Below are positions 28,423 to 40,333 of a stretch of 64,000 bases of DNA, one piece after another. The notes under the pieces are model-generated. The model saw only the letters and a program-made list of their open reading frames with translations. It was not told where the DNA came from and ran no database searches. A program made the translations under genes and the position numbers. The DNA is from Pedobacter deserti (lineage in GTDB: Bacteria > Bacteroidota > Bacteroidia > Sphingobacteriales > Sphingobacteriaceae): assembly GCF_024436415.1 (NCBI RefSeq), contig NZ_JAFMZQ010000001.1, positions 1 to 64,000 of the forward strand, in the 5' to 3' direction. Every line of letters begins with the position of its first letter. The first letter of the stretch is position 1.

Positions 28423-29067
28423 TTATAAAATCAAAGCACCGGCATATACCGTGTCGCCCGTCCTTCCACCGTCCGCGGAATCAAAGTTCATGTAACAATG
28501 CAGGGTAAAGCCCGCAAGGTACCGTGGCACCAGCACGTCGCAAGCACAGGCACGACGGTTTACCACATGAACACTGCTGACTCCTGCATTCCTTTCCGGA
28601 GAATAAATCAGGAAAGTACCCCGGTCGGCATACTGGCAGTTGGGCGACTGCGGCTGCGCTGCCCAGGTAAACCTGAGCTTGCGCATATGACCGGTACCCT
28701 CATCGGCCAGCGCCGTAACCTGCACCCCGCAGGGTATGGACACCGGTCCGCGACTGTAAACCAGCCGTGTATAATCCAGATAGTCTTCCTTGAAAACCCG
28801 CGGGTAGTTGTAAGAAAACGCCGTGCCTATTATCTCTTTGCCCTTGGCGGCCGACTTAAAACCCGCCGCAACCAGATCGGCATTCCTATGAAGAAAACGG
28901 CCTAATTCCGCGAAACGTTCCTGTTGCTCAAGCTGTATTTCGGTGGGTTTCGCTTTACTCCGCTTATGAAGCCCGGTCATAACATTTCTGCGCTTGCCAC
29001 GGCGACCGATCACCACTCCAGCCTTTTTAAAAAAAGTGCCGAGCAATCCATTATTTACAATAGCCAT
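28423..29067 (-). CDS. DUF6266 family protein (downstream copy)
   Basis: 214 residues from the ATG at 29067; a longer frame adds 35 residues that run into the preceding gene and show no homology. The short N-terminal motif (IVNNGLLGTFFKKAGVVIGR) matches the start of the upstream paralogue, and the rest is beta-rich with a final aromatic strand pattern. Cysteine-rich spots (RRACACD) are unusual among its neighbours. DUF6266 is a Bacteroidota family of unknown function. It starts four bases after the upstream copy ends. Confidence 0.75.
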   Translation of the reverse strand: MAIVNNGLLGTFFKKAGVVIGRRGKRRNVMTGLHKRSKAKPTEIQLEQQERFAELGRFLHRNADLVAAGFKSAAKGKEIIGTAFSYNYPRVFKEDYLDYTRLVYSRGPVSIPCGVQVTALADEGTGHMRKLRFTWAAQPQSPNCQYADRGTFLIYSPERNAGVSSVHVVNRRACACDVLVPRYLAGFTLHCYMNFDSADGGRTGDTVYAGALIL

Positions 29068-29071
29068 GTGC

Positions 29072-29710
29072 TTACAGATTAAAGTTACCCAGATACGTGC
29101 TATTGGCCGTCGCCTTACGGTCGGCCGATACGAACGATATATACACTTCCATATAGCTTCCCTGAAGTGCATCCGGAATCACCAGCAGATCTCTGCCCGC
29201 TTCACGCCTGTTCCCGAACAAACTGAGATAGCTACCCTCTGTTTCAGGAAAGTACGCCAGCATCATGACCTGGTCCGAACTGCGCTCCCAGGAGAGTTCT
29301 GTATCTGCGGCCCAGCTGAATTCCAGTCCGGCAGACACCTGCATCACTGCCGGATCCTGCGCAGGTAAAAGCGTACCCTGACTGACCCTCAGCCGATCGT
29401 AAGCGACCGTAGCATTCGGATAATCTCCCTGAAGGGCATTCCTGCGGTTGTAGCTCATCGCTTCATTAAAACAATTTAAATCTTTCCCTACAATCTCCGG
29501 CGCAAAGCCCACGTTAATAAACGGAAGCAGTTTGCTCAGGAGCGGACTCATTAGCTCTACCTGCTGTCGCGATGCCAACTGCTTTTCCGTCGGCGGATTT
29601 AAATTCACCCCTATTGTCCGTGCAATATTTTTTCCCTTCCGGGTATAGTAGACCAAATTGCCTACCTTCCCGGTTACCTCCCCGTGGAGGCCATTTTTAA
29701 TAATACCCAT
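29072..29710 (-). CDS. DUF6266 family protein (upstream copy)
   Basis: 212 residues. It begins GIIKNGLHGEVTGKVGNLVYY, the short N-terminal motif typical of DUF6266, followed by a helical middle and a beta-rich C-terminus with FVSADRKATANSTYLG near the end. No signal peptide or membrane helix. It forms a tandem pair with the next gene; the two proteins are clearly diverged, so the duplication is old or each has its own role. A candidate promoter lies at 29759-29790. Confidence 0.78.
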   Translation of the reverse strand: MGIIKNGLHGEVTGKVGNLVYYTRKGKNIARTIGVNLNPPTEKQLASRQQVELMSPLLSKLLPFINVGFAPEIVGKDLNCFNEAMSYNRRNALQGDYPNATVAYDRLRVSQGTLLPAQDPAVMQVSAGLEFSWAADTELSWERSSDQVMMLAYFPETEGSYLSLFGNRREAGRDLLVIPDALQGSYMEVYISFVSADRKATANSTYLGNFNL

Positions 29711-29920: not shown

Positions 29921-30051
29921 CCCAGCCAATCATAAATCAATTCTCCTGATATAAGAAGCTTTATAAATAGTTACGATATAAAATTGCCGTGCTTATCCCG
30001 AACAAGGAGAGCACTGTGGTAAATGCAATGAAATTCCTACATTCGGGTAAG

Positions 30052-30729
30052 ATGAAGAAACTGGTAGTATTAACGGGCGCTGGCATCAGCGCAGAAAGCG
30101 GATTAAAAACGTTCAGAGACTCTGACGGGCTGTGGGAAGGCTACGACATTGAAGAAGTAGCTACGCCCGAAGGCTGGAGGCGAAATCCGGAACTGGTACA
30201 GCGTTTTTATAACGAGCGGCGCAAATCGGTGCTGGAGGCGCAACCGAATGCCGCGCATCTGGCCCTGGCCGCAATGCAGGAGCATTTTGAGGTACAGATT
30301 ATTACACAGAATATTGACGACCTGCACGAGCGCGCGGGCTCAAAAAATGTATTGCATCTTCACGGACTCATCACCATGTCGCAGTCGGACGCCGATGCCA
30401 GCCTGACTTACCCTATTGATGGCTGGGAAATTAAGATGACCGACCTGTGTGAATACGGCAAGCCCTTGCGCCCGCATGTCGTTTGGTTTAGCGAAAACGT
30501 CCCTAACCTCCTGCCTGCAGCGGAACTATGCGCCGAGGCCGACGTTTTTGCTGTGATCGGCACATCACTGGCGGTGTACCCGGCAGCGGGACTTACCGAC
30601 TATGTGCCTTATGATATCCCTAAATATGTGGTCGACCGCAAAGTACCTTACATTAGCGGCGACTATATCAAGATTGAAGCTCCGGCGACCGTTGGTGTTC
30701 CGCGACTGGCGGAGTTACTGCTTTCGTAG
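30052..30729 (+). CDS. Sir2-type NAD-dependent deacylase without zinc cysteines
   Basis: 225 residues from the ATG at 30052 (a further ATG lies at 30028). NAD-binding GAGISAESG starts at residue 9, TQNIDDLH follows, and the catalytic His is His104. Tyr53 and Arg56 (YNERR) match the Tyr/Arg pair of SIRT5/CobB-type deacylases, so desuccinylase or demalonylase activity is likely besides deacetylation. The zinc ribbon is gone: of the usual four cysteines only Cys133 remains. Such zinc-free sirtuins occur in Bacteroidota. The gene's end overlaps the convergent polyamine operon by 62 bases. Confidence 0.88.
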   Translation: MKKLVVLTGAGISAESGLKTFRDSDGLWEGYDIEEVATPEGWRRNPELVQRFYNERRKSVLEAQPNAAHLALAAMQEHFEVQIITQNIDDLHERAGSKNVLHLHGLITMSQSDADASLTYPIDGWEIKMTDLCEYGKPLRPHVVWFSENVPNLLPAAELCAEADVFAVIGTSLAVYPAAGLTDYVPYDIPKYVVDRKVPYISGDYIKIEAPATVGVPRLAELLLS

Positions 30730-31774
30730 CTCTGGATTTTTTCCAAATAAAGCCGTCTAGAACATAGTGTGTCATTTGCGGCAGGGCCAGAAGGGGAACA
30801 AGCAGTGCCAGCACATCCTTTTCATGTATAGCGGGAAGAAAGGAAAATATCCCGAATACCGATGCGTTTTCCCGCCAAACAAATCCGTCCCACAAACCTT
30901 CCTCTAAATAAGCGAATAAAATAATTGAGCCGATAAAGAACAGTAAGCCGTACCGTGTGGAGGTCGCGTTCTGTAAAGGGCCCGATTCTGAGCGGGGCCT
31001 GACTTTTTGTTTCTCAAAAAACCATATAAGCGCCATGTAGGGAATTCCATGAGATATTACGTTGAGCATTGTAAAGGCCATATCGCCATTAAAATAGACG
31101 ATACCAAAGTACCAGGAAAGAAAAGTTCCTGCTATGACAAGATTTCGGGGAATATTGATTTCCGAATACCGAAAGATAATGAGGCCCTCCTTTAAAAAAT
31201 AAATCAGGATGACCGCAAGATATAAGACAAAAGAGATTTCCCGCAATGGGGCGGAGTTGAAATACAGGAAGTCGCCGGCGATAAACCAGTTGAAGTTGCG
31301 GTCGGCCGACAGATGCCAATAAAGCAGCGGATAAAGGGTGGCTGTATAAATTGCCACCTTGTCGACCGCCTCAAAGAACATTCCATTGTTTTCCTTTCTG
31401 GAATAAAGGCGCATGATGCCATACTGCTGGCGTACAAAGTGAAAGACCGCAAGGTAGGCGAGAATCCGCCAAAACCACATATCATTTGCATGATAAAGCA
31501 GCACAGCCATAACATAGCAAGCCAAAGGAACGGTAAGGAGCAGGTTTCGCCTGGTGCCCATGCCAGCGGGGTTAAAGTAAGTGCGGTATAGTGTTGAATA
31601 AACATGAGCCACGTCGATAAACACCACCAGGATTACCCAATAAAGCACCGGCATACCTGCCGCGTTTTGAAATTTTGCTGGCATAAGGCTTACAATAAGC
31701 AGCGACAAAAAGGGTGGCGACAATATAAAGATACTGTCGGACAACGGCGAGTTGAGCCATGGCTGCTTAGGCAT
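30668..31774 (-). CDS. Polytopic membrane protein, last gene of the polyamine-type operon
   Basis: 368 residues from the ATG at 31774, with about ten hydrophobic helices. I do not recognise the family. Histidines in or near the helices stand out: DVAHVY, VFHFVRQQYG, VISHGIPY and MTHYVLDG. This pattern could suit a heme- or metal-bearing membrane enzyme or a lipid-active protein, but that is speculation. Its start overlaps the stop of the flavoprotein gene by eight bases, so it belongs to the operon. Its 3' end overlaps the convergent sirtuin gene. Confidence 0.7.
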   Translation of the reverse strand: MPKQPWLNSPLSDSIFILSPPFLSLLIVSLMPAKFQNAAGMPVLYWVILVVFIDVAHVYSTLYRTYFNPAGMGTRRNLLLTVPLACYVMAVLLYHANDMWFWRILAYLAVFHFVRQQYGIMRLYSRKENNGMFFEAVDKVAIYTATLYPLLYWHLSADRNFNWFIAGDFLYFNSAPLREISFVLYLAVILIYFLKEGLIIFRYSEINIPRNLVIAGTFLSWYFGIVYFNGDMAFTMLNVISHGIPYMALIWFFEKQKVRPRSESGPLQNATSTRYGLLFFIGSIILFAYLEEGLWDGFVWRENASVFGIFSFLPAIHEKDVLALLVPLLALPQMTHYVLDGFIWKKSRATKAVTPPVAEHQRSPELQS

Positions 31775-33395
31775 TTCGTGTAGCCAACAGCTCCTTCGCT
31801 GCGCGTATTCCCTGATGAAATCCCTCCTCAAACAAGGAAATCCCGCTCAGGTCGGTGTGACCAAAAAAAACTTTTCCGCCAATATGCTGCCTTGCTTTCC
31901 GGCGATCTTCTCCCCAGATGTAGCCCGTGGTCGGACTCACCATACCATGGCCCCACACCCAAACATCTATCCGCATTATCAAGCGAGTAATACCGGGGTG
32001 CATGTATTCCATTTCCGGTATAATTATGTCCAGCCACTGCTCGTATGTCCGCGCGTATGCCGCAAGGCGGGCTACGCGTGGACTTTGCTTGCATAAGGGC
32101 AGATAAAACGTCAGCACCTTTGGTCCGGCAGACATACCGGGCTGCTGATGTCCGGCGTATACATAGCCGACGGAGGGCTTACCAAACGGCACATTGTCCC
32201 ACGACGGCGGACCGGATGGCAGATCCTGAACAGTAATGTTGGCGACCATCCAGGGTGCATAGGTGATCTTAGCCGCATCGAAGGGCCGGGATATTCCTTC
32301 GAGAATACGGTTATTTACAAACTGCGGCGTTGCCATGATGACTTGATCAGCTATTATGTTGACCGTGCTGGCTGTTTTAAGGTCATACACGAGGGCTTGC
32401 ACCTTGCCATCAGTCCCGAAGCTTATCTTGTGGGTCATAAACGACGTTTTGATATGCTTATCAAGCTTTTCACGTAGTTTACGGATCAGCCAGCCGTTTC
32501 CCTCCGGCCAGGTGAGTACAGCTCCCTGATCGGCATTGGCCGCGCGGCCCTTGTGACCCGAAAAGTAATTCAGCCCGGCCCAAGCAGATATATGATCCAA
32601 GGTAAGACCGTAGTCGTCTTTACAGCAATACTCGAGGTACCACAGAAGATACGGCGATTGGTAGCCTTCCCGTTTGAGATAATCTGCAAAGGAAATGGTA
32701 TCGAGCTTACGAAAGGCCGGATCATCAGACGACTGGTCTACCGGTATATAAAATGCATATTTGCCGTCTGATCCCCGTGCATCCCGAAGCTGGTCGGCCA
32801 GATTTAAAAACTTATTTATCTCTAAGGTATCGCCTGGATTCACACCGAAGCGCGGAATCAGTCCATCCTGCCATTGCCCGTTAATAAGCAACCGCTCTTC
32901 AGGATCGAAACAAAGGTAAAATTCGTTATATAAAGGCAGACCGTTCTGATAGCCGGTGATAACACCCGACTCTTCCAGAAATTGCAGCAGTTCTTGATCG
33001 TCATTATTGGCAATGGTGATGTAGTGCGCGCCGAGGGGATAACGAGAAACACGGTTCTGCTGATGATGGGCATTGCCGCCAACGTGATCTTCAAGTTCCA
33101 GGATTACAAAGTTTGACATCCCCTGCTTCTGGAGCCAGCGCCCTGCGGAAAGACCGGATACGCCCGCTCCAACTACGAGGACATCGACCTCCTGACTTCC
33201 TGTGGCGGGGGGCAACGGCGACTTGTCCCGGAGCATGTGACCCGCACGGGCATCGGGCCCGCCCAAGCCTCCGGAAATATGCTTATATTTTTGTGTCTGT
33301 CCTGTGATCTTGCCCATGCAGCCGTTGAGCATTACCGCGCCAACAGCCAGGGCGGCTTGCATCAAGAATCTTTTTCTGCTGATCGGCTCCCTCAT
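31767..33395 (-). CDS. Lipoprotein FAD-dependent amine-oxidase-like enzyme
   Basis: 542 residues from the ATG at 33395. The N-terminus has a Tat-like SRKRFL followed by a hydrophobic stretch and a lipobox (LNGC), so it should be exported, perhaps folded with FAD, and lipid-anchored. The dinucleotide-binding VVGAGVSGLSAG follows at about residues 75-87, then an FAD-linked amine oxidase-type body (GGNAHHQ, PLGAHYI) and a C-terminal FFGHTDLSG segment closing the flavin site. Polyamine or related amine oxidation is the natural guess from context. It starts one base after the SpeE-like gene ends. Confidence 0.82.
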   Translation of the reverse strand: MREPISRKRFLMQAALAVGAVMLNGCMGKITGQTQKYKHISGGLGGPDARAGHMLRDKSPLPPATGSQEVDVLVVGAGVSGLSAGRWLQKQGMSNFVILELEDHVGGNAHHQQNRVSRYPLGAHYITIANNDDQELLQFLEESGVITGYQNGLPLYNEFYLCFDPEERLLINGQWQDGLIPRFGVNPGDTLEINKFLNLADQLRDARGSDGKYAFYIPVDQSSDDPAFRKLDTISFADYLKREGYQSPYLLWYLEYCCKDDYGLTLDHISAWAGLNYFSGHKGRAANADQGAVLTWPEGNGWLIRKLREKLDKHIKTSFMTHKISFGTDGKVQALVYDLKTASTVNIIADQVIMATPQFVNNRILEGISRPFDAAKITYAPWMVANITVQDLPSGPPSWDNVPFGKPSVGYVYAGHQQPGMSAGPKVLTFYLPLCKQSPRVARLAAYARTYEQWLDIIIPEMEYMHPGITRLIMRIDVWVWGHGMVSPTTGYIWGEDRRKARQHIGGKVFFGHTDLSGISLFEEGFHQGIRAAKELLATRNA

Positions 33396-33396
33396 T

Positions 33397-34911
33397 TTAC
33401 TGATAGGTAACGGCGCCCCATTCTTCTTCAAAATATTTGACAAGGGCCTGGTTGTTCAATTTATTTACATCCGTTTGCACTTTTTTCATGTCATCAGGAA
33501 AATGCATCATCTGTGCAAGTGTAGAAGTCGACACAAACCGCAGATTTGGGGGAAACGCTGAGGGTAGCCTATATGCTGGCTGCATGGTGGCAAGAATGTA
33601 TCCCCATTCGCCGAAAGAAGGAACGTAGTTATGATATGGAACAGTAAAAAAACCAACGGACCGCAGGGTCTCGTCGATGCACCAGAATGATTTCGGGGCT
33701 ACGTAGGGCGAGGTTGACTGCACTACAACCGCCGCGTTCGGTGCAGCCACGTTACGGAGCTCCCTGTAGAAAGTGTTGGTGTATAATTTACCTACGGCGT
33801 AGTTGGAAGGATCTGGGAAGTCGACGACTATAAAATCATATTTTTTTGCGGCTGATCTGATCCAGGTAAACGCATCACCATTGACTACGGTAACGCGGGG
33901 CGACAACAGCGATGACTGGTTCAGTTCAGTGAGCATCAAATTTGACCGAAACAAGGATGTCATGCCGGGATCGAGATCTACGAGGGTGATATCTTCCACG
34001 TTGGGATACTTAAGTATTTCACGCACGGCCAGTCCGTCGCCTCCGCCCATTACCAGAACATGCCTCGCCTGCGGTAAGGCTGCCAGTCCGGGGTGAACAA
34101 GCGCCTCATGATAGCGGTACTCGTCGTCGGCACTGAACTGAAGATTTCCATTCAGGTAAAGTTTTAAAACTTTACCGCGTTTAGTGAGTACAATACGCTG
34201 ATAAGAAGTGCTTTTTGAATAAATAATGGTGTCGTTATAGCTCAGACTCTCTGCATAACTGGTTATCTGCGCAGCCATTACAAAACCCGCCAGCAACGCA
34301 AGCAGAGAAACCACAGATGCGGTTTTAAGATAACCCGGTCGGCTTATCTCTTTCTGAAATGCAAAACATACCAGTAAGGCGACGCCTACATTCAGCATGC
34401 CAAAGAGAAATGATGTTTTCACCAGTCCGAGATATGGTATAAGCAGCAGCGGAAAAATAATGGATGCAAGCAGCGCTCCAATGTAATCGAAAGTAAAAAC
34501 GCGGGAAACCAGGTCTTTAAATTCATACCGGTCTTTGAGAATTCGCATAAGCAGTGGTATCTCGAGCCCTACAAGTATTCCGGTAATACCCACGAGGCTG
34601 TACAGGATAATTCGGAAGGAGGCCGCACTCTCAAAAACCAGGTAAAGGATGCTGGAACTGACGCCGCCAACCAGACCTACCAAAATTTCAATCTGGATAA
34701 ACCAGAATAGGATATTCTTCTCGAAATACCTGGACATCCATGATCCGATGCCCATGGAAAAAAGATAAAGCCCGATGATGATGGAAAACTGGGTAACGGA
34801 ATCTCCCAGCAGGTAACTGGCCAGTGTACCGGCGATTAACTCATAGATGAGTCCGCAGGTGGCAACAACGAATACGGACAGCAGTAATAATATGGGTAGT
34901 TTATTACTCAT
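33397..34911 (-). CDS. Membrane-bound spermidine synthase-like aminopropyltransferase
   Basis: 504 residues. Seven hydrophobic helices fill about residues 6-217, and the rest is a SpeE domain with the SAM-type GGGDGLAVRE motif, the acidic VDLDP, NGDAFTW, and the VDFPDPSN active-site loop. Spermidine synthases transfer an aminopropyl group from decarboxylated AdoMet to a diamine. Positive residues concentrate in the loops after helices 2, 4 and 6, which by the positive-inside rule puts the N-terminus inside and the catalytic domain outside the cytoplasm. Fifth gene of the operon, 11 bases after the DUF350 gene. Confidence 0.9.
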   Translation of the reverse strand: MSNKLPILLLLSVFVVATCGLIYELIAGTLASYLLGDSVTQFSIIIGLYLFSMGIGSWMSRYFEKNILFWFIQIEILVGLVGGVSSSILYLVFESAASFRIILYSLVGITGILVGLEIPLLMRILKDRYEFKDLVSRVFTFDYIGALLASIIFPLLLIPYLGLVKTSFLFGMLNVGVALLVCFAFQKEISRPGYLKTASVVSLLALLAGFVMAAQITSYAESLSYNDTIIYSKSTSYQRIVLTKRGKVLKLYLNGNLQFSADDEYRYHEALVHPGLAALPQARHVLVMGGGDGLAVREILKYPNVEDITLVDLDPGMTSLFRSNLMLTELNQSSLLSPRVTVVNGDAFTWIRSAAKKYDFIVVDFPDPSNYAVGKLYTNTFYRELRNVAAPNAAVVVQSTSPYVAPKSFWCIDETLRSVGFFTVPYHNYVPSFGEWGYILATMQPAYRLPSAFPPNLRFVSTSTLAQMMHFPDDMKKVQTDVNKLNNQALVKYFEEEWGAVTYQ

Positions 34912-34922
34912 TGTTAACCTGG

Positions 34923-35147
34923 CTATCCATGGATAGATGAGCTTACAATCATCGCTATCGCTATAATAAACGCTGCAAAAACAACAGCCAGTGCCATATT
35001 CCGCTTCTCAAGAATTTCTTTCCAGAGATTCTCAGGGGTGATCTTTTCAATGATCCAGAATGAAATAAGCAGGATAAAGATACCAAGGAATGAGTACAGC
35101 ACTGAGGCTACTACATATTTGATGTTAATTAATTCGTATAAGCTCAT
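34923..35147 (-). CDS. DUF350 (YjfL-like) small membrane protein
   Basis: 74 residues with two hydrophobic helices (about 10-32 and 50-70) joined by a short charged loop (EKITPENLWKEI). The fold matches DUF350, normally present as one or two copies of a two- to four-helix unit; this one is a single unit. DUF350 genes travel with aminopropyltransferase, SpeD-like and DUF4178 genes in several phyla, and with yjf-type envelope-stress loci. Function unknown, perhaps a membrane scaffold or channel for the neighbouring enzymes. It starts nine bases after the small-protein gene. Confidence 0.85.
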   Translation of the reverse strand: MSLYELINIKYVVASVLYSFLGIFILLISFWIIEKITPENLWKEILEKRNMALAVVFAAFIIAIAMIVSSSIHG

Positions 35148-35156
35148 ATTTTATAA

Positions 35157-35327
35157 TTATTTATGATGAAACCTGTTTCCGTGTCCATATGTCCGGACGC
35201 TGCTGGGTTCGCTGTTTCGCCGGAGATTTTCCTGCCAGGCCGCCCGCCCCACATAGGAGGCGTAGACATAGGATACCACAACCATGGCGATGAAAACAAT
35301 GTAAATGTATTTTATAGTCAACTTCAT
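35157..35327 (-). CDS. Small 56-residue single-TM protein
   Basis: A short open frame between the DUF4178 and DUF350 genes. It begins with ATG at 35327 that overlaps the DUF4178 stop by one base (TAATG) and ends with TAA at 35157-35159, nine bases before DUF350. The protein is MKLTIKYIYIVFIAMVVVSY for its first 20 residues: one transmembrane helix (about 5-24), then a basic tail rich in Arg, Asn, Gly and His. The overlap and position argue strongly that it is real. It may be a membrane anchor or regulator within the system; no known family is recognised. Confidence 0.75.
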   Translation of the reverse strand: MKLTIKYIYIVFIAMVVVSYVYASYVGRAAWQENLRRNSEPSSVRTYGHGNRFHHK

Positions 35328-36640
35328 TATCCCTGGCTAAAAGGTGAGTAATTACTGTTAGACCAGCGCCGCTTTTCAAAGTAGTAAGCGCGTATAAGAT
35401 TGGTGATAGGAACGATACTGATCAGCAGTACGGCAACGAATATATTCCGCCACATGACGGGGTTTGCGGTAACACGAATATCGACAGCACCATTCCGTAT
35501 ATCCCCGCCTGCGGCATAAACGTTGAGATGGTACTTACCTTCGGGTATCTCCGAAATCATCATTGCTGCCACCCGGCTACCCTCCGACCAGTGCTCACCG
35601 CCTTCATAACCCTGATAGAACTCTATGCCTTTGGTCACCTCCCAGGATTGATTGCTGGCCTCGTTGACCAACACGATGGTCGCTTCAAGCCAGTTATTAT
35701 CTAGCATGGAACTGACCTCCATTTCAAGTGCGGATGAGCCATGAATCTCGAAAGAAGAAGTCACGAACGGGTTGAACTCATTAACCGGCTTTACACTATC
35801 GGCCATGAGATAGTATGTTTTATCAAGGAGCGTACGTTCAGGCCTTAACGAGCTAATCAAAAATTCCGATACAAAAATGAACATCGCCGCGATAAGCGCG
35901 ATCTTTATTGTCCACGACCAGCTTTCATATCCTTTGGATGGCTGGTTGGAGACGACGCCCTCTTTGCTTGGAAAATCATTAATATCCAATTTGAACGCCT
36001 CAGCTATAACCTGAGGCTCTGTATACTCCCCATTATAGTACTGCGTCTTACCATGAAGTCCCTTTTCCGTTTCCTGGGATATGACGAAGGGTGGAGATAT
36101 AAATTCAGATATATGTATTTTTTCGCCCCGAATGTCCCAGTCAAATTCGCCGATCATGGCGATAATTGCAGGTGTGTACTTATGGAAGAGCTTATACTGC
36201 GTTGAGCCGCCCTGATAAGAGAGCGTTTTTCCGGACTGAACCATGCTTTCCAACTCAGGTTGAAAGTTGGCTCCTAAGATGAGATTCCAATGGCCGTCGA
36301 ACTCAGAAAGGAAAGCATAGCCCTTCTCATAATGGTAAAGGATATATTCGCGCCATCTATAGAGGGGATCGTTTTCACGTTTTTCTATGTAGGCAATCAC
36401 CTTAAACCGGTAACCTTTTAAGACACCTTCGCTTCCGATGGGTATTAAAGGCGTTTGCGCCTTCTTTCTGGCTTTGTATATCACTTCGGGCGTCTCACCT
36501 GAAAACCTGATGTAGGCGGCGCATGACCCACAGGCGCAGTATTCGCTGCCTTGCGGATCGTATAGCGTGATTGTTGCCCGGCACGTTGGGCATTCGAAGG
36601 TTTCGGGCACTGGAAAAGAAGAGAGTGAGAGGCTGGCCAT
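35327..36640 (-). CDS. DUF4178 membrane protein with N-terminal zinc ribbon
   Basis: 437 residues. A zinc-ribbon-like knuckle uses Cys17/Cys20 (ECPTC) and Cys37/Cys40 (CGSC). A DUF4178 domain with the repeat-like YRWREYILYH and FDWDIRGEK segments follows to about residue 210. Then comes one transmembrane helix (about 247-268), an extracytoplasmic beta-rich domain (about 270-400), and a second helix near the C-terminus. The zinc ribbon and DUF4178 would face the cytoplasm. Function unknown; the family recurs with SpeD-like, DUF350 and SpeE genes. It starts one base after the SpeD-like gene ends. Confidence 0.82.
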   Translation of the reverse strand: MASLSLSSFPVPETFECPTCRATITLYDPQGSEYCACGSCAAYIRFSGETPEVIYKARKKAQTPLIPIGSEGVLKGYRFKVIAYIEKRENDPLYRWREYILYHYEKGYAFLSEFDGHWNLILGANFQPELESMVQSGKTLSYQGGSTQYKLFHKYTPAIIAMIGEFDWDIRGEKIHISEFISPPFVISQETEKGLHGKTQYYNGEYTEPQVIAEAFKLDINDFPSKEGVVSNQPSKGYESWSWTIKIALIAAMFIFVSEFLISSLRPERTLLDKTYYLMADSVKPVNEFNPFVTSSFEIHGSSALEMEVSSMLDNNWLEATIVLVNEASNQSWEVTKGIEFYQGYEGGEHWSEGSRVAAMMISEIPEGKYHLNVYAAGGDIRNGAVDIRVTANPVMWRNIFVAVLLISIVPITNLIRAYYFEKRRWSNSNYSPFSQG

Positions 36641-36641
36641 A

Positions 36642-36995
36642 TTATCGTATCAATTCTGACTTTCCATACTCATGTCCTTCAAAAAAAAGAAGCACCGCTT
36701 CGTAGATTATCCTGACCTTTTCGGAATTATCACGTCTGTAATTGGAGAGAAACACGTCGAAGGTCGCTCTCCCAAACTCCGGCCAGGTGTGAATAGACAT
36801 ATGTGATTCGGACAGGCAGACCACTGCGGTAAACCCTCCGCCCGGGAAGTCATGGTACACCTCCCCGACCTTAACCAGTCCATACGCATCGATCAGTTCA
36901 TCAAAGCGTTGCTTGCATGCGACATGTTTTAAGAGATATTCTTCCTTTTTGCTAGTAAACTCCGAGAGGATATGCAGGCCCGGCTGGTAAGTCAT
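36642..36995 (-). CDS. SpeD-like pyruvoyl-dependent decarboxylase, Cys to Ser at the acid site
   Basis: 117 residues from the ATG at 36995; another ATG at 37007 adds four residues but leaves almost no leader after the promoter. The AdoMet decarboxylase processing site is intact: Ser64 in SESHMSIHTWPE becomes the pyruvoyl group and His69 follows. Spacing to the next key site matches the Thermotoga enzyme (Ser63, His68, Cys83), but here the residue is Ser84 (DVFLSN), so the catalytic-acid Cys is missing. Altered SpeD homologues can decarboxylate amino acids such as ornithine or arginine instead, so the substrate is open. First gene of the operon. Confidence 0.85.
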   Translation of the reverse strand: MTYQPGLHILSEFTSKKEEYLLKHVACKQRFDELIDAYGLVKVGEVYHDFPGGGFTAVVCLSESHMSIHTWPEFGRATFDVFLSNYRRDNSEKVRIIYEAVLLFFEGHEYGKSELIR

Positions 36996-37018
36996 TGTTG
37001 AAAGCATTAATTCAAACT

Positions 37019-37047
37019 CAAAAATAATAAAGTTTTATTTAGTTCAA
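37019..37047 (-). promoter_or_regulatory. Promoter of the polyamine-type operon
   Basis: On the minus strand TTG (37045-37047), an 18-base spacer and TATTTTTG (37019-37026) fit the Bacteroidota consensus. Transcription should begin around 37012, giving an 18-base leader to the ATG at 36995 but only about six bases to the ATG at 37007. Confidence 0.6.
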
Positions 37048-37071
37048 AGATTCAACTTCGCACTGACCTTG

Positions 37072-39288
37072 TTACCATAGAAGCGTGACGTTAATACCCT
37101 CCGGACTATTATCGAACCCCAGATGCAATGTACGGGAAGCCGCATGCCAGTTATGTTTTGCACCGGAAAGTTCCGCGCCTGAGGCATTGGTAACCTTTAC
37201 GCTACGTGGCTCGGCCGGCAACAATACTCGCATGCTGTTGATGGTGTTGGCCGGACTCTTACAGGTGAAGCTATAGGTCTTGTTTCCTGTCTCCTCATTG
37301 TACACACGTGCCGCAGCAGCCAGTACCTGGGGCTTGTTCTTATCCGCGACTCTGTTCAGATTGTATAGAAACGCTTGCTCGCCGGGTTTCACTACCTTTT
37401 CGGTTAGCACAGGAAGCTCTGGATCGAAAAGATCGATGACGAGTCCTTTGACGGTATGAGGCTCCGTGTTCACACTTTCATCCATGACGGCAACGATATC
37501 ATAGGGCCCTCTTTGCAGAAAAAGGTTGTTTTTAAAGTCCAGTTTACCGGCCCTGGCTTCCTGTTCAAATGCCTGCTTCACAGTGTTCAGAAAGACTGCA
37601 TCGCCATTGGCTTCCATAGCAAATTCCTTAGGGTTCTTTCTAATCACGTACACCGCTCCTTTACCTGCTTTGAAATACTGGGCGTTATTGTGGTTGTCTG
37701 CCGCAGCGCCGGTCTGTGCAGGCTGAATGCCGAGCAGCTTAAAGAGGTGGTCGGACGGCGCCTTGAAAGCATTGCCCTTGGTATTCCACCATTCCATGAC
37801 GCTTTGGTAGGGGTCGTTATCGCGACCGCAGTACACGAGTACACCACCCGCTTTAACCCATTCGGCTAAATGTTCATGTGCCGCCGCAGCATCGGGCTTC
37901 ATGTTGGCATAGCTCATGATAAGCACTTTGATGTCTTTAAGTGTGTTCCTGAAGGCCAGGTTTTCCATATGTACGGTTTGTACCGGCACTCCGTTTTTGA
38001 GCAGCGGCAAGGTTTGTCCGTAAAAATTAGAGAAGCGCGGATCGCTGTACCCGGCGTGTTCGGGAAACTGCTGGAACATGAGGCTGTTGCCCATCAGTAC
38101 ACCGATGGCATTGGTGCCGTTGACACGGTTGGCCGACAAAGGCATGTGGTTTAGCGCGTTGACCATCACCTGCATCTGGGTAGAATAGTATTTCGGGATC
38201 AGCACTTCCTCCTCGCTGTTGGCCAGCCGGTACGGGCGGGTATAAATGCGCTCAGGCCATGGCATCACCTCATAGTCGGCGACCATAGGATATAGCAGCT
38301 TGGCGGTGAAGGTGGCCTGGTAGTTCAGTTTATAGTCTAACCAGTCCTTCGGCCTGTCTTCAATCGGATCGGTCAGGAAAAACACTTTACGCCCGGTTGG
38401 CGCGGTCATGGACACCATAGATCCATATTCCAGGAAAGCGTTTTCAAACACGCGCTCCCTGACCTTGCCTTTATAAAAGTTCGGTTCACGCGAAGTGCCG
38501 GTCCACACCTGTGCAATATACCCATCTATACTCTTTAATGAAGCCAGACTGGCTTCGGGACTGACGATTCGCCAGGAGGCGTAGTTGACCAGCGAGTGTG
38601 TGGGAATATATACTTTGACGTCGAGCCCTTTACTTTTGCCGTAGGACTTGGCATATTCGGATACTTCTTTAATCGCATTATAATAAAGCTGGTACTTGAG
38701 CTTTTGCGAGAGATAGGTGTTCTCGGGTGATTCATGCTGCGGGCGCCAGTCGAAGCCATAAAACTTTTTCCATTCCTGCTTGAAAACCTCACTGTATCCG
38801 GCCCTTGCCCAAAACTCAGGCTCCTCGAGATGAATTGCCGTGATGCCGGCATCGATCACCTTTTTTACAACCGCAGTTTTCATATAGTCGATATAGGAGG
38901 CCACAGGTACGATGTAAGGCACCACATCCTTATCGTGCCAGATGATTTCGCCGTTGCGTTCTACCTGCCCAATGTCCTGATGGTTCTTGCCATCCCATTT
39001 ACCGAGGAAGTAGTCCTGATAACCGCCCCAGGCTATGCCTGTCATAAAATGCGTCTGATAGCCGCGGTCGCGCCACGATTTAACACGCTCTTCGAAAGTC
39101 ATTCCCCGGCGGTCGCCCGCCCCATACACAATGGCAATGTCCGACCGCACGTCAATTTCTGGTCGCCATGCACTGCCGGTTTGAAATGCTGTTTTTTCCG
39201 CAGGTTTCGGATTGGTTTGAGCCACTGCATGCCTCATTAGGATGGGCATGGACGCAGCAAGGCATAAAGAAAAGAGTTTGGTGTTCAT
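37072..39288 (-). CDS. Secreted glycoside-hydrolase-like protein (GH42-type layout)
   Basis: 738 residues. A signal peptide (about 1-23, ending VAQ) precedes a TIM-barrel-like half with the acidic segment GITAIHLEEPEFW, a possible catalytic pair. Next is a domain resembling the beta-galactosidase trimerisation/GATase fold (about 440-560; VLIMSYANMKP, VYCGRDND), and a C-terminal beta domain closes the protein. It resembles GH42-type beta-galactosidases in layout, but I cannot name a family with certainty. It is upstream of, and on the same strand as, the polyamine-type operon, 64 bases away, with that operon's own promoter in the gap. Confidence 0.6.
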   Translation of the reverse strand: MNTKLFSLCLAASMPILMRHAVAQTNPKPAEKTAFQTGSAWRPEIDVRSDIAIVYGAGDRRGMTFEERVKSWRDRGYQTHFMTGIAWGGYQDYFLGKWDGKNHQDIGQVERNGEIIWHDKDVVPYIVPVASYIDYMKTAVVKKVIDAGITAIHLEEPEFWARAGYSEVFKQEWKKFYGFDWRPQHESPENTYLSQKLKYQLYYNAIKEVSEYAKSYGKSKGLDVKVYIPTHSLVNYASWRIVSPEASLASLKSIDGYIAQVWTGTSREPNFYKGKVRERVFENAFLEYGSMVSMTAPTGRKVFFLTDPIEDRPKDWLDYKLNYQATFTAKLLYPMVADYEVMPWPERIYTRPYRLANSEEEVLIPKYYSTQMQVMVNALNHMPLSANRVNGTNAIGVLMGNSLMFQQFPEHAGYSDPRFSNFYGQTLPLLKNGVPVQTVHMENLAFRNTLKDIKVLIMSYANMKPDAAAAHEHLAEWVKAGGVLVYCGRDNDPYQSVMEWWNTKGNAFKAPSDHLFKLLGIQPAQTGAAADNHNNAQYFKAGKGAVYVIRKNPKEFAMEANGDAVFLNTVKQAFEQEARAGKLDFKNNLFLQRGPYDIVAVMDESVNTEPHTVKGLVIDLFDPELPVLTEKVVKPGEQAFLYNLNRVADKNKPQVLAAAARVYNEETGNKTYSFTCKSPANTINSMRVLLPAEPRSVKVTNASGAELSGAKHNWHAASRTLHLGFDNSPEGINVTLLW

Positions 39289-39400: not shown

Positions 39401-40333
39401 ATGACCACTTATCAGACTTTACTTTACTACTGCTATACGCCTATAGCAGAGGCGGAGCAGTTCGCCGCGGACCATCTTGCTTTTTGTAAATCATTAAACC
39501 TTACAGGCCGTATTATTGTGGCCGACGAGGGGCTGAACGGTACCGTTTCGGGTACGCGGGAGGCTTGTGAGGCGTACATGAGCGCCATTAAGGCCGATGA
39601 GCGATTTGCGAAAACAGATTTCAAGATAGACGATGTGCCCGAGCCTTCCTTTATCAAAATGCACTGCCGTTATAAGGCGGAGATTGTGCATTCGGGCCTG
39701 CGCGACCCGAACATTATTGACCCGAATAAACAAACGGGCAAACATCTGGAACCTGCCGAGTTTCGGGATATGATAGACCGCGACGATGTTGTGGTGCTGG
39801 ATGTGCGTTCGAATTATGAGCACAATCTGGGCCGGTTTAAGAATGCGGTTACGCTGGATATTGAGAACTTCAGGGATTTTCCGGCTAAGATCAATGAGCT
39901 GGCGCAGTATAAGGACAAAAAGGTGCTGACCTATTGCACCGGCGGTATTAAATGCGAAAAAGCTTCTGCCCTGCTGCTTCACCATGGGTTTAAAGATGTG
40001 TACCAGTTGCACGGCGGCATCATTAAGTATGGGAAGGAAGTTGGCGGAGAGGATTTTGAAGGCAAATGCTATGTGTTTGACAACCGCGTGGCGGTAGACG
40101 TAAATACGGTGAACCCAAAGGTGGTTTCTACATGCTATAACTGCGGCAAAACTACGCCTAAGATGATCAACTGCGCCAACCCGGAATGCAACGAGCACAT
40201 TACGCAATGTGATGAGTGCGGCGAGGCCTTGCAGGGATGCTGTTCGGAAGCATGTACCACGAATCCGCGTAAAAGAAAATACGATGGAACGGGGTATTAT
40301 GTGAAGGTACCGCAGCCGGTTGCCGCGAAGTAA
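39401..40333 (+). CDS. trhO: tRNA uridine(34) hydroxylase, rhodanese type
   Basis: 310 residues. An N-terminal acylphosphatase-like domain (about 1-95, with DEGLNGTVSGT), a rhodanese domain with the active-site loop CTGGIKCEKAS, and a C-terminal cysteine-rich region (CYNCG, CANPEC, CDECG) match the YceA/TrhO family. The enzyme makes 5-hydroxyuridine at position 34 of certain tRNAs using oxygen. A TATATTTG -7-like box lies 41 bases upstream without a clear -33. A hairpin with a T-run follows at 40407. Confidence 0.93.
   Translation: MTTYQTLLYYCYTPIAEAEQFAADHLAFCKSLNLTGRIIVADEGLNGTVSGTREACEAYMSAIKADERFAKTDFKIDDVPEPSFIKMHCRYKAEIVHSGLRDPNIIDPNKQTGKHLEPAEFRDMIDRDDVVVLDVRSNYEHNLGRFKNAVTLDIENFRDFPAKINELAQYKDKKVLTYCTGGIKCEKASALLLHHGFKDVYQLHGGIIKYGKEVGGEDFEGKCYVFDNRVAVDVNTVNPKVVSTCYNCGKTTPKMINCANPECNEHITQCDECGEALQGCCSEACTTNPRKRKYDGTGYYVKVPQPVAAK

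Follow-up and report, generated by a model that had tools for sequence, protein, structure and literature searches.

The window analysed here, the first 64,000 nucleotides of contig NZ_JAFMZQ010000001.1 of Pedobacter deserti (RefSeq assembly GCF_024436415.1; 3.95 Mb in 4 contigs), contains an operon of seven genes, tightly packed on the minus strand from position 37007 down to 30668 according to the open reading frame (ORF) list and the sequence (Table 1). The genes encode a SpeD-like protein, a DUF4178 protein, a microprotein of 56 amino acids (aa), a DUF350 protein, a SpeE domain fused to a membrane domain (7TM-SpeE), a flavin amine-oxidase-like protein (the flavoenzyme) and a polytopic membrane protein. 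The operon is real and conserved, yet patchy in its distribution, and its core was already known.

An initial annotation of this DNA had described seven genes on one strand, each overlapping or at most 11 bases from the next. This was confirmed: from SpeD to the polytopic protein the junctions are a gap of 1 base, an overlap of 1, gaps of 9, 11 and 1, and an overlap of 8. The family labels SpeD, DUF4178, DUF350, SpeE and flavoenzyme also held, with all five Pfam matches (PF02675, PF13785, PF03994, PF01564 and PF01593) exceeding the Pfam cut-off (for the flavoenzyme, 53.8 bits against 19.8). The 56-aa and polytopic proteins have no family match of weight.

Table 1. Features of the operon in the window. 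Starts of P0006 and P0007 are set at ATG; the mechanical ORFs open earlier, at TTG.
Feature	Position	Strand	Length	Basis
speD-like gene P0001	36642..37007	-	121 aa	PF02675 4.8e-20, 72.3 bits
DUF4178 protein P0002	35327..36640	-	437 aa	PF13785 1.6e-9, 38.5 bits
Single-helix microprotein P0003	35157..35327	-	56 aa	-HK ORF in place, 79/80 loci
P0003 C-terminal Phe-His-His-Lys codons	35160..35171	-		Conserved tail is the last two, His-Lys
DUF350 protein P0004	34923..35147	-	74 aa	PF03994 3.9e-14, 53.3 bits
7TM-SpeE P0005, aminopropyltransferase domain behind membrane domain	33397..34911	-	504 aa	PF01564 4.2e-38, 131.2 bits; NF002956
Flavin amine-oxidase-like P0006	31767..33395	-	542 aa	PF01593 2.6e-14, 53.8 bits; Tat-like start, lipobox-like LNGC
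Polytopic protein P0007	30668..31774	-	368 aa	Five invariant His; no Pfam match
Candidate Bacteroidota-type promoter TTTG-N18-TATTTTTG	37019..37048	-		Read from sequence; weak

Distribution and gene order

Among 198 sampled genomes of the phylum Bacteroidota the operon is found in 5. SpeE fusions that are at least 37% identical across most of the protein were detected in 12 genomes and strong flavoenzyme relatives in 5 (window included in both counts), while relatives of the polytopic protein are strong in 4 (window included) and distant in 10 more. Three of the six genomes from the window's own family, one of them from the same genus, contain neither SpeE nor SpeD. The complete order is present in the neighbourhoods of G080 (same genus as the window genome), G166 and G174, the small ORFs being judged by place and tail. 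The G002 locus has SpeD, the DUF4178 protein, DUF350, SpeE and the flavoenzyme, with no polytopic gene. The recurrence of the same order in other genera and families exceeds chance.

When GTDB was scanned with the SpeE alignment, at least 536 relatives were confirmed, and the best 80 of these loci were examined. They come from genera including Pedobacter, Mucilaginibacter, Chitinophaga, Hymenobacter and Spirosoma; Pedobacter soli (L047) and Chitinophaga filiformis (L079) are among the carriers. At testable loci, meaning those with enough sequence on the relevant side and with distance thresholds of our own choosing, the flavoenzyme is present in 78/78, the DUF4178 protein in 76/77, SpeD in 69/75 and the polytopic protein in 64/70; DUF350 is found at 67 of the 80 loci. 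The suggestion of a membrane-linked conserved unit thus stood, with the flavoenzyme as its fixed partner, and so did the co-occurrence on which the initial annotation had made its proposal depend, as a conserved order was found across Bacteroidota genomes. The exact seven-gene string was recovered by hidden Markov models (HMMs) alone at only 24/80 loci because the small-protein profile misses many members and because truncated loci and split or duplicated genes are among the 80. On the SpeE tree the gaps need one change for SpeD, three for the polytopic protein and four for DUF350. Two loci belong to bins of other affiliation: L111 is from an Oligoflexia bin, and L119 is from a Nitrospinota bin, on a 6.6-kb contig where only SpeE and the flavoenzyme are seen. 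In L055 and L122 the block of DUF4178, microprotein and DUF350 genes is duplicated within the operon, and L062, L064, L067 and others encode a DUF4178 protein of 625-650 aa.

The SpeD/MFS-SpdSyn clusters of a 2019 study by Li reportedly combine a functional SpeD with a membrane-fused SpeE and with DUF350, and are reported to act, presumably, outside polyamine synthesis. Compared with those clusters, the window has a Bacteroidota seven-gene form with a microprotein, a polytopic protein and a SpeD with Ser at the position of the catalytic Cys83 (Ser83 SpeD). The core of the operon and the idea of an acceptor other than a polyamine are already in print: the accessible part of PMC11237479 describes operons of 7TM-SpeE, DUF350, DUF4178 and a lipoprotein beside PspA-CesT/Tir, as well as a band-7/SHOCT variant which carries an S-adenosylmethionine (AdoMet) decarboxylase and a polyamine oxidase. 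It proposes polyamine monitoring or the aminopropylation of other substrates. The window shares 7TM-SpeE, DUF350, DUF4178, SpeD and the amine oxidase with the operons in that part of PMC11237479, but no PspA, CesT or band-7/SHOCT protein is found among its seven proteins or in a scan of six neighbours. In the same part of PMC11237479 neither the His-Lys microprotein nor the polytopic protein nor a Ser83 SpeD was met. The Novosphingobium operon L137, with an SPFH-domain gene and a 48-aa protein ending in -HK, resembles the band-7 variant as described there.

Features of the encoded proteins

P0005 scores 679.5 bits against NF002956, a model named polyamine aminopropyltransferase. Like canonical SpeE, it has the donor motif GGGDG and the acidic ribose site: GGGDG, D312, D314, D346, Y237, Q238 and Q398 are retained in 83/83 proteins. 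In contrast, all 83 lack the canonical DS(S/T/A)DP and PTYP loops, which we take to form the acceptor side of SpeE, and have DFPDP and PSFG instead. Six canonical fusions have DSADP and IPTYPTG.

Averaged over 90 aligned proteins, the SpeE membrane domain has seven hydropathy peaks; window P0005 alone has six segments above a self-set threshold. The distribution of positive charges places the N-terminus and loops 2-3, 4-5 and 6-7 inside in 83/83 window-type and 7/7 other proteins (mean K+R inside versus outside: 11.0 versus 1.9 and 10.1 versus 0.9, respectively). With seven helices and the N-terminus inside, the SpeE domain would therefore lie outside. Decarboxylated AdoMet is made inside the cell. 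The conflict would be resolved if the seventh segment does not cross the membrane, if the donor is exported by the membrane part, or if the charge rule misleads here.

The window SpeD, aligned with the Thermotoga maritima structure in the PDB, retains S63, H68, E72 and F49. The pyruvoyl serine S63 and H68 are thus shared with class 1b SpeD, whereas the catalytic C83 is replaced by Ser (S88). The four residues are kept in 70/70 relatives, and the C83 position is Ser in 69/70 as well as in the window. Cys was found at this position in L111, G174 and G002, and in the proteobacterial L137, L138 and L139. The window protein scores 66.3 bits against TIGR03330, below its cut-off of 75.65. A literature search for Cys-to-Ser mutants of AdoMet decarboxylase found no paper with such a mutant. 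According to the accessible part of PMC10407285, C83 takes part in both processing and catalysis.

SpeD is absent at 6 of the 75 testable loci (Pontibacter, Adhaeribacter, Botryobacter and three Rufibacter), which form one clade on the SpeE tree with a support of 1.0. Away from the operon, each of these six genomes encodes a single canonical SpeD (142-146 bits), which forms a fusion with a canonical SpeE. In 35/35 other operon genomes with SpeD at the locus there is exactly one SpeD match, of 65-85 bits and operon-like; the positions of these matches were not individually checked, and L065 and L108 are not among the 35. The window genome, G080, G166, G174, G002 and the genomes of L063 and L111 have one SpeD match each. 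The genome searches for SpeD and nspC took in chosen loci and not all 80. The swap suggests that operon SpeD and canonical SpeD share the job of supplying decarboxylated AdoMet, and is suggestive only because it is a single event.

The replacement of C83 and the score below the TIGR03330 cut-off would fit a SpeD that serves as a regulator or catalyses another reaction instead of decarboxylating AdoMet. This is improbable, as the other four residues are kept in every relative, the one low-scoring SpeD is all that the 35 genomes have, and the gene is missing from the locus only where the genome has a canonical SpeD. Supply of decarboxylated AdoMet therefore probably remains the function of the Ser-for-Cys SpeD. 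An ornithine or arginine decarboxylase is also unlikely, since F49 and E72, presumably AdoMet-site residues, are kept and canonical SpeD seems to replace the protein.

Other routes to triamines were sought in the operon genomes. nspC (CASDC) is found above the cut-off in 7 of the 29 searched, including both Dyadobacter genomes. The remaining 22 have only matches under the cut-off, which are probably other decarboxylases. The window genome encodes one SpeD, one match to P0005 and a deoxyhypusine-synthase-like protein (140.9 bits); no nspC over the cut-off was found there, and a speA search gave only matches under the cut-off. Judged by gene content, some operon genomes hold other spermidine or triamine routes beside the operon. 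The initial annotation had pointed to surface spermidine as in Pseudomonas aeruginosa, and this comparison was not supported: the SpeE acceptor-side motifs differ, nspC or a canonical SpeD-SpeE fusion is present in some of the genomes (7/29 and 6, respectively), and a deoxyhypusine-synthase-like gene is present in the window genome. For homospermidine in Bacteroidota the literature gave one relevant passage, which favours spermidine: the accessible part of PMC3035232 gives spermidine as the main polyamine of Dyadobacter fermentans. Both searched Dyadobacter genomes have nspC, so the genus has another source; the D. fermentans genome is not among them.

The 56-aa microprotein, which the initial annotation had listed as a new small protein, is a real, conserved component of the operon. 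An ORF ending in His-Lys stands before DUF350 or SpeE at 79/80 loci, counted by a search for -HK ends within 1.5 kb before SpeE; the exception is L119, where no such ORF was found at the microprotein's place. The background is 88 -HK ends in 6701 ORFs of 40-130 aa, true microproteins among them. With a microprotein HMM, 62/62 matching ORFs (in 60/80 loci) end in -HK, a result that is partly circular as the HMM was built on three -HK-ending proteins. The residue preceding His-Lys is Y in 61 of the 79 loci, F in 9, H in 7, and L and G in one each. Forty-eight aligned microproteins have a mean pairwise identity of 28%; the only invariant residues are a single Gly and the His and Lys of the tail. 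Both His codons and both Lys codons are used, the stop codons vary, and the spacing to the following gene, as measured from called starts, ranges from an overlap to more than 100 bases. This variation indicates that selection acts on the protein level, and the idea that the tail codons serve as a DNA signal for the following gene was rejected on these grounds. The microprotein is retained in the 12 loci other than L119 that lack DUF350. In G002 no separate microprotein was found; there the DUF4178 protein contains a third hydrophobic segment, and its own C-terminus reads ...SGSHK, so that the tail is fused to DUF4178.

The microprotein has one hydrophobic helix. Positive charge is higher in its N-terminal than in its C-terminal flank in 67 of 81 cases, tied in 11 (including the window protein, with +2 and +2) and lower in 3, which favours a tail outside the cytoplasm in most loci. 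It was rejected as a member of a named family: window P0003 has no Pfam match better than E 0.27 and no NCBIfam match, and among the 48 relatives any one family model matches at most 3 (best E 0.0069). No description of it was met in the literature covered, in which no search was aimed at the tail and from which most subscription papers were absent.

Terminal lysines recur in other operons, where searches used patterns of our own and hand-picked ORFs, several with uncertain starts. Beyond Bacteroidota, -HK ends are found in Novosphingobium (L137, L141) and Burkholderia stagnalis (L136), and other ends with Lys in Gemmatirosa (L135, -HGK), Ensifer (L138, -SGK), Tritonibacter (L140, -RVK) and Alteromonas (L139, a 536-aa protein ending in -SGK). 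Lipoprotein-like proteins with a -GK end are encoded in five of seven further 7TM-SpeE operons from the phylum; the remaining two, L027 and L028, encode a protein that ends in -YGG.

The flavoenzyme is predicted to be exported to the outside. R7 and F10 of its twin-arginine translocation (Tat)-like motif are invariant in 46/46 aligned proteins, a lipobox pattern of our own matches 31/46 (L055 and L058, for example, have no Cys in the stretch shown), and TatC is encoded in the window genome. Its structural model, with a predicted local distance difference test (pLDDT) score of 92.2, matches putrescine oxidase (Z 29.6, root-mean-square deviation (rmsd) 3.4, 421 residues aligned), and also MAO and SpdH (Z 27.0, rmsd 4.2, 450 aligned, from model residue 42). 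The fold and the flavin adenine dinucleotide-binding N-terminus are shared with these enzymes, but identity in the structural alignments is 15-20% and the Tat-like start differs. These Z values do not pick a substrate. Distant near-full-length relatives with 25-31% identity occur without a SpeE match nearby at L035-L039 (G105, G027, G043, G059 and G101); two genes with Tat-like starts adjoin them in 4/5 (not G043).

In the polytopic protein H57, H112, H154, H242 and H336 are invariant in 45/45 sequences, as are three Asp and two Glu of those tallied, and four of the five His are found in the three distant relatives aligned. A metal site may be guessed from this pattern. P0007 has no Pfam or NCBIfam match, and the 45 aligned members have only scattered ones (best E 0.0045). 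A profile search of the PDB gave no match at E up to 1. With its model (pLDDT 89.5) Foldseek gave 284 matches within E 10, of which none reached 0.001, and the best VIA-align 2 matches were microbial rhodopsins (Z 6.2, rmsd 5.5, 169 aligned), where a Z under about 13 for a helical bundle may mean a common arrangement only.

The DUF4178 protein P0002 consists of an N-terminus with CxxC pairs, the DUF4178 domain, a transmembrane segment, a further stretch and a second transmembrane segment, its two hydrophobic segments in all. The zinc ribbon claimed for it is borne out in part: the CxxC pairs are present in the alignment, but the LysW-like family match (0.014) is under the cut-off.

The single consensus promoter that had been described before SpeD was rejected. 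A sigma-70 scan (up to 38500) listed no minus-strand site upstream of SpeD, and the 44 occurrences of the motif TAnnTTTG in the window do not exceed the 45.5 expected by chance. The candidate at 37048-37019 resembles the Bacteroidota promoter motif.

A Sir2-family (sirtuin) gene at 29989-30729 (PF02146, 141.7 bits) converges on the operon and has a 62-base overlap with its last gene. The gene immediately upstream of the operon (37072-39288), which is on its strand, encodes a 738-aa protein with a signal-peptide-like start by eye and no Pfam family at E 0.001. Two adjacent DUF6266 genes (PF19781), overlapping as called, are found at 28423-29710. A UPF0176/rhodanese gene for a 310-aa protein is located two genes upstream of the operon on the opposite strand (39401-40333). 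In the Novosphingobium operon a rhodanese-related sulfurtransferase of the same length (L137:11445-12377) comes after SpeD. The presence of such a gene near both operons is possibly chance.

Candidate acceptors and proposed mechanism

The operon is best read as an envelope aminopropyl-transfer module whose acceptor is held in the membrane or located in the envelope, with a probability of about 0.58. Operon SpeD would decarboxylate AdoMet, a step which the gene swap supports. 7TM-SpeE would then move the aminopropyl group from decarboxylated AdoMet to the membrane-held or envelope acceptor and not to free putrescine, and the exported flavin amine oxidase would act on the resulting amine on the outer side of the inner membrane. 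Holding or steering the complex may be the role of the DUF4178 protein, the His-Lys microprotein and, where present, DUF350, and the polytopic protein may be a further membrane enzyme or a transporter. In favour of this reading, the gene order recurs, the donor residues are kept while the acceptor loops are changed, canonical SpeD appears to replace operon SpeD, other spermidine routes coexist with the operon, and the flavoenzyme is a constant partner (78/78) with a Tat-like motif in a genome that encodes TatC. The proposals of PMC11237479 for operons of this kind point the same way.

Several points weigh against it. To our knowledge, none of the seven proteins has a known activity. The charge bias puts the SpeE domain outside in 83/83 proteins, where decarboxylated AdoMet is not expected. 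The SpeD swap is one loss in one clade, and the change of C83 to Ser loses a residue tied to processing and catalysis in the accessible part of PMC10407285. In the 22 genomes without nspC over the cut-off the operon could make free polyamine, and D. fermentans, whose own genome lies outside the search, has spermidine as its main polyamine in the passage of PMC3035232.

Two narrower readings, a lipid and a protein tail, are special cases of envelope aminopropyl transfer. A lipid acceptor is a tentative possibility: the 7TM domain would place the lipid and flip it once aminopropylated, in the manner of MprF, and the flavoenzyme would trim it. MprF makes and flips lysyl-phosphatidylglycerol. A membrane domain fused to a transferase with an intact donor site is consistent with this, as are the several partners with hydrophobic segments or an export motif. 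However, no such lipid is known and the conserved His-Lys tail is left unexplained.

A protein acceptor is an unlikely though concrete alternative. The C-terminal Lys (or His) of the microprotein would take the aminopropyl group, either as a final hypusine-like product or for handing on as in DltX. The tail's persistence at 79/80 loci amid 28% mean identity and varying codons, stops and spacing is in its favour, together with the G002 fusion, the -HK and other terminal-Lys ends beyond the phylum and the lipoprotein-like -GK ends in 5/7 other operons. There is a further parallel in the Escherichia coli operon yjfIJKLMC (L142), where DUF350 is likewise accompanied by an enzyme that uses polyamines and by an anchored protein (P0008) whose tail is rich in Gly and Ser. 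There the ligase YjfC, labelled peptide-spermidine ligase in RefSeq, replaces SpeE; a 2023 study by Pederick reportedly names such a ligase in its title. However, YjfM ends in -HWGG and not in Lys, L027 and L028 end in -YGG, and L119 lacks such an ORF. Tail and SpeE domain would also have to share one side of the membrane; the predictions put both outside, away from the expected place of the donor, and the window microprotein is a tie in the charge test. The modification itself is a proposal. Its precedent is the DltX mechanism, in which, according to the accessible part of PMC12148441, a microprotein tail serves as a D-alanine shuttle; DltX as described there is a very small membrane protein whose conserved C-terminal motif lies outside, and its partners are a transferase in the membrane and an enzyme on the outer side; the operon would resemble this arrangement if the microprotein tail is outside, as predicted at most loci. 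The window proteins differ in that the tail is mostly (Y/F/H)HK without FXYXXF, no MBOAT or SGNH family is among the seven, and there is no sequence likeness to DltX (PF12459 matches 2/48, best E 0.22).

Ordinary spermidine synthesis, in which SpeD and SpeE would make free polyamine for export or for use by the flavoenzyme, is distinctly unlikely. The name of NF002956, the lack of nspC over the cut-off in 22/29 genomes and in the window genome, and the single SpeD and single P0005 match in the latter are in line with it. The changed acceptor-side motifs in 83/83 proteins, the canonical SpeD-SpeE fusions beside the operon in 6 genomes and nspC in 7/29 are not. In Li's 2019 study 7TM-SpeE fusions also reportedly failed to complement an E. 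coli speE deletion.

The most specific version of envelope transfer, a relay outside the inner membrane, is doubtful. The 7TM domain would export decarboxylated AdoMet, a periplasmic SpeE domain would load the C-terminal Lys or His of the microprotein, and the flavoenzyme and the His-rich polytopic protein would turn the product over. Covalent tethering of the tail Lys to peptidoglycan, as in Braun's lipoprotein, whose C-terminal Lys is joined in this way, would suit a small anchored protein with a terminal-Lys tail mostly predicted outside, but is highly improbable, as the preceding His is conserved too, no L,D-transpeptidase family was found among the seven proteins in the Pfam scan, and the SpeD-SpeE chemistry would go unused while the enzymes served something else.

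At least 536 loci encode a relative of the membrane-fused SpeE, yet no paper naming the acceptor was found. One concrete candidate is the conserved His-Lys tail, and the SpeD swap hints at the donor. Tail, Ser83 SpeD with its swap, and topology are additions to the known core, and they make the question of the membrane-SpeE target testable. Should the tail prove to be the acceptor, it would link polyamine chemistry with the modification of proteins at the bacterial envelope. The relay, if true, would add a new polyamine-type modification of proteins and extend the DltX shuttle idea to a second case, one without an acyl group.

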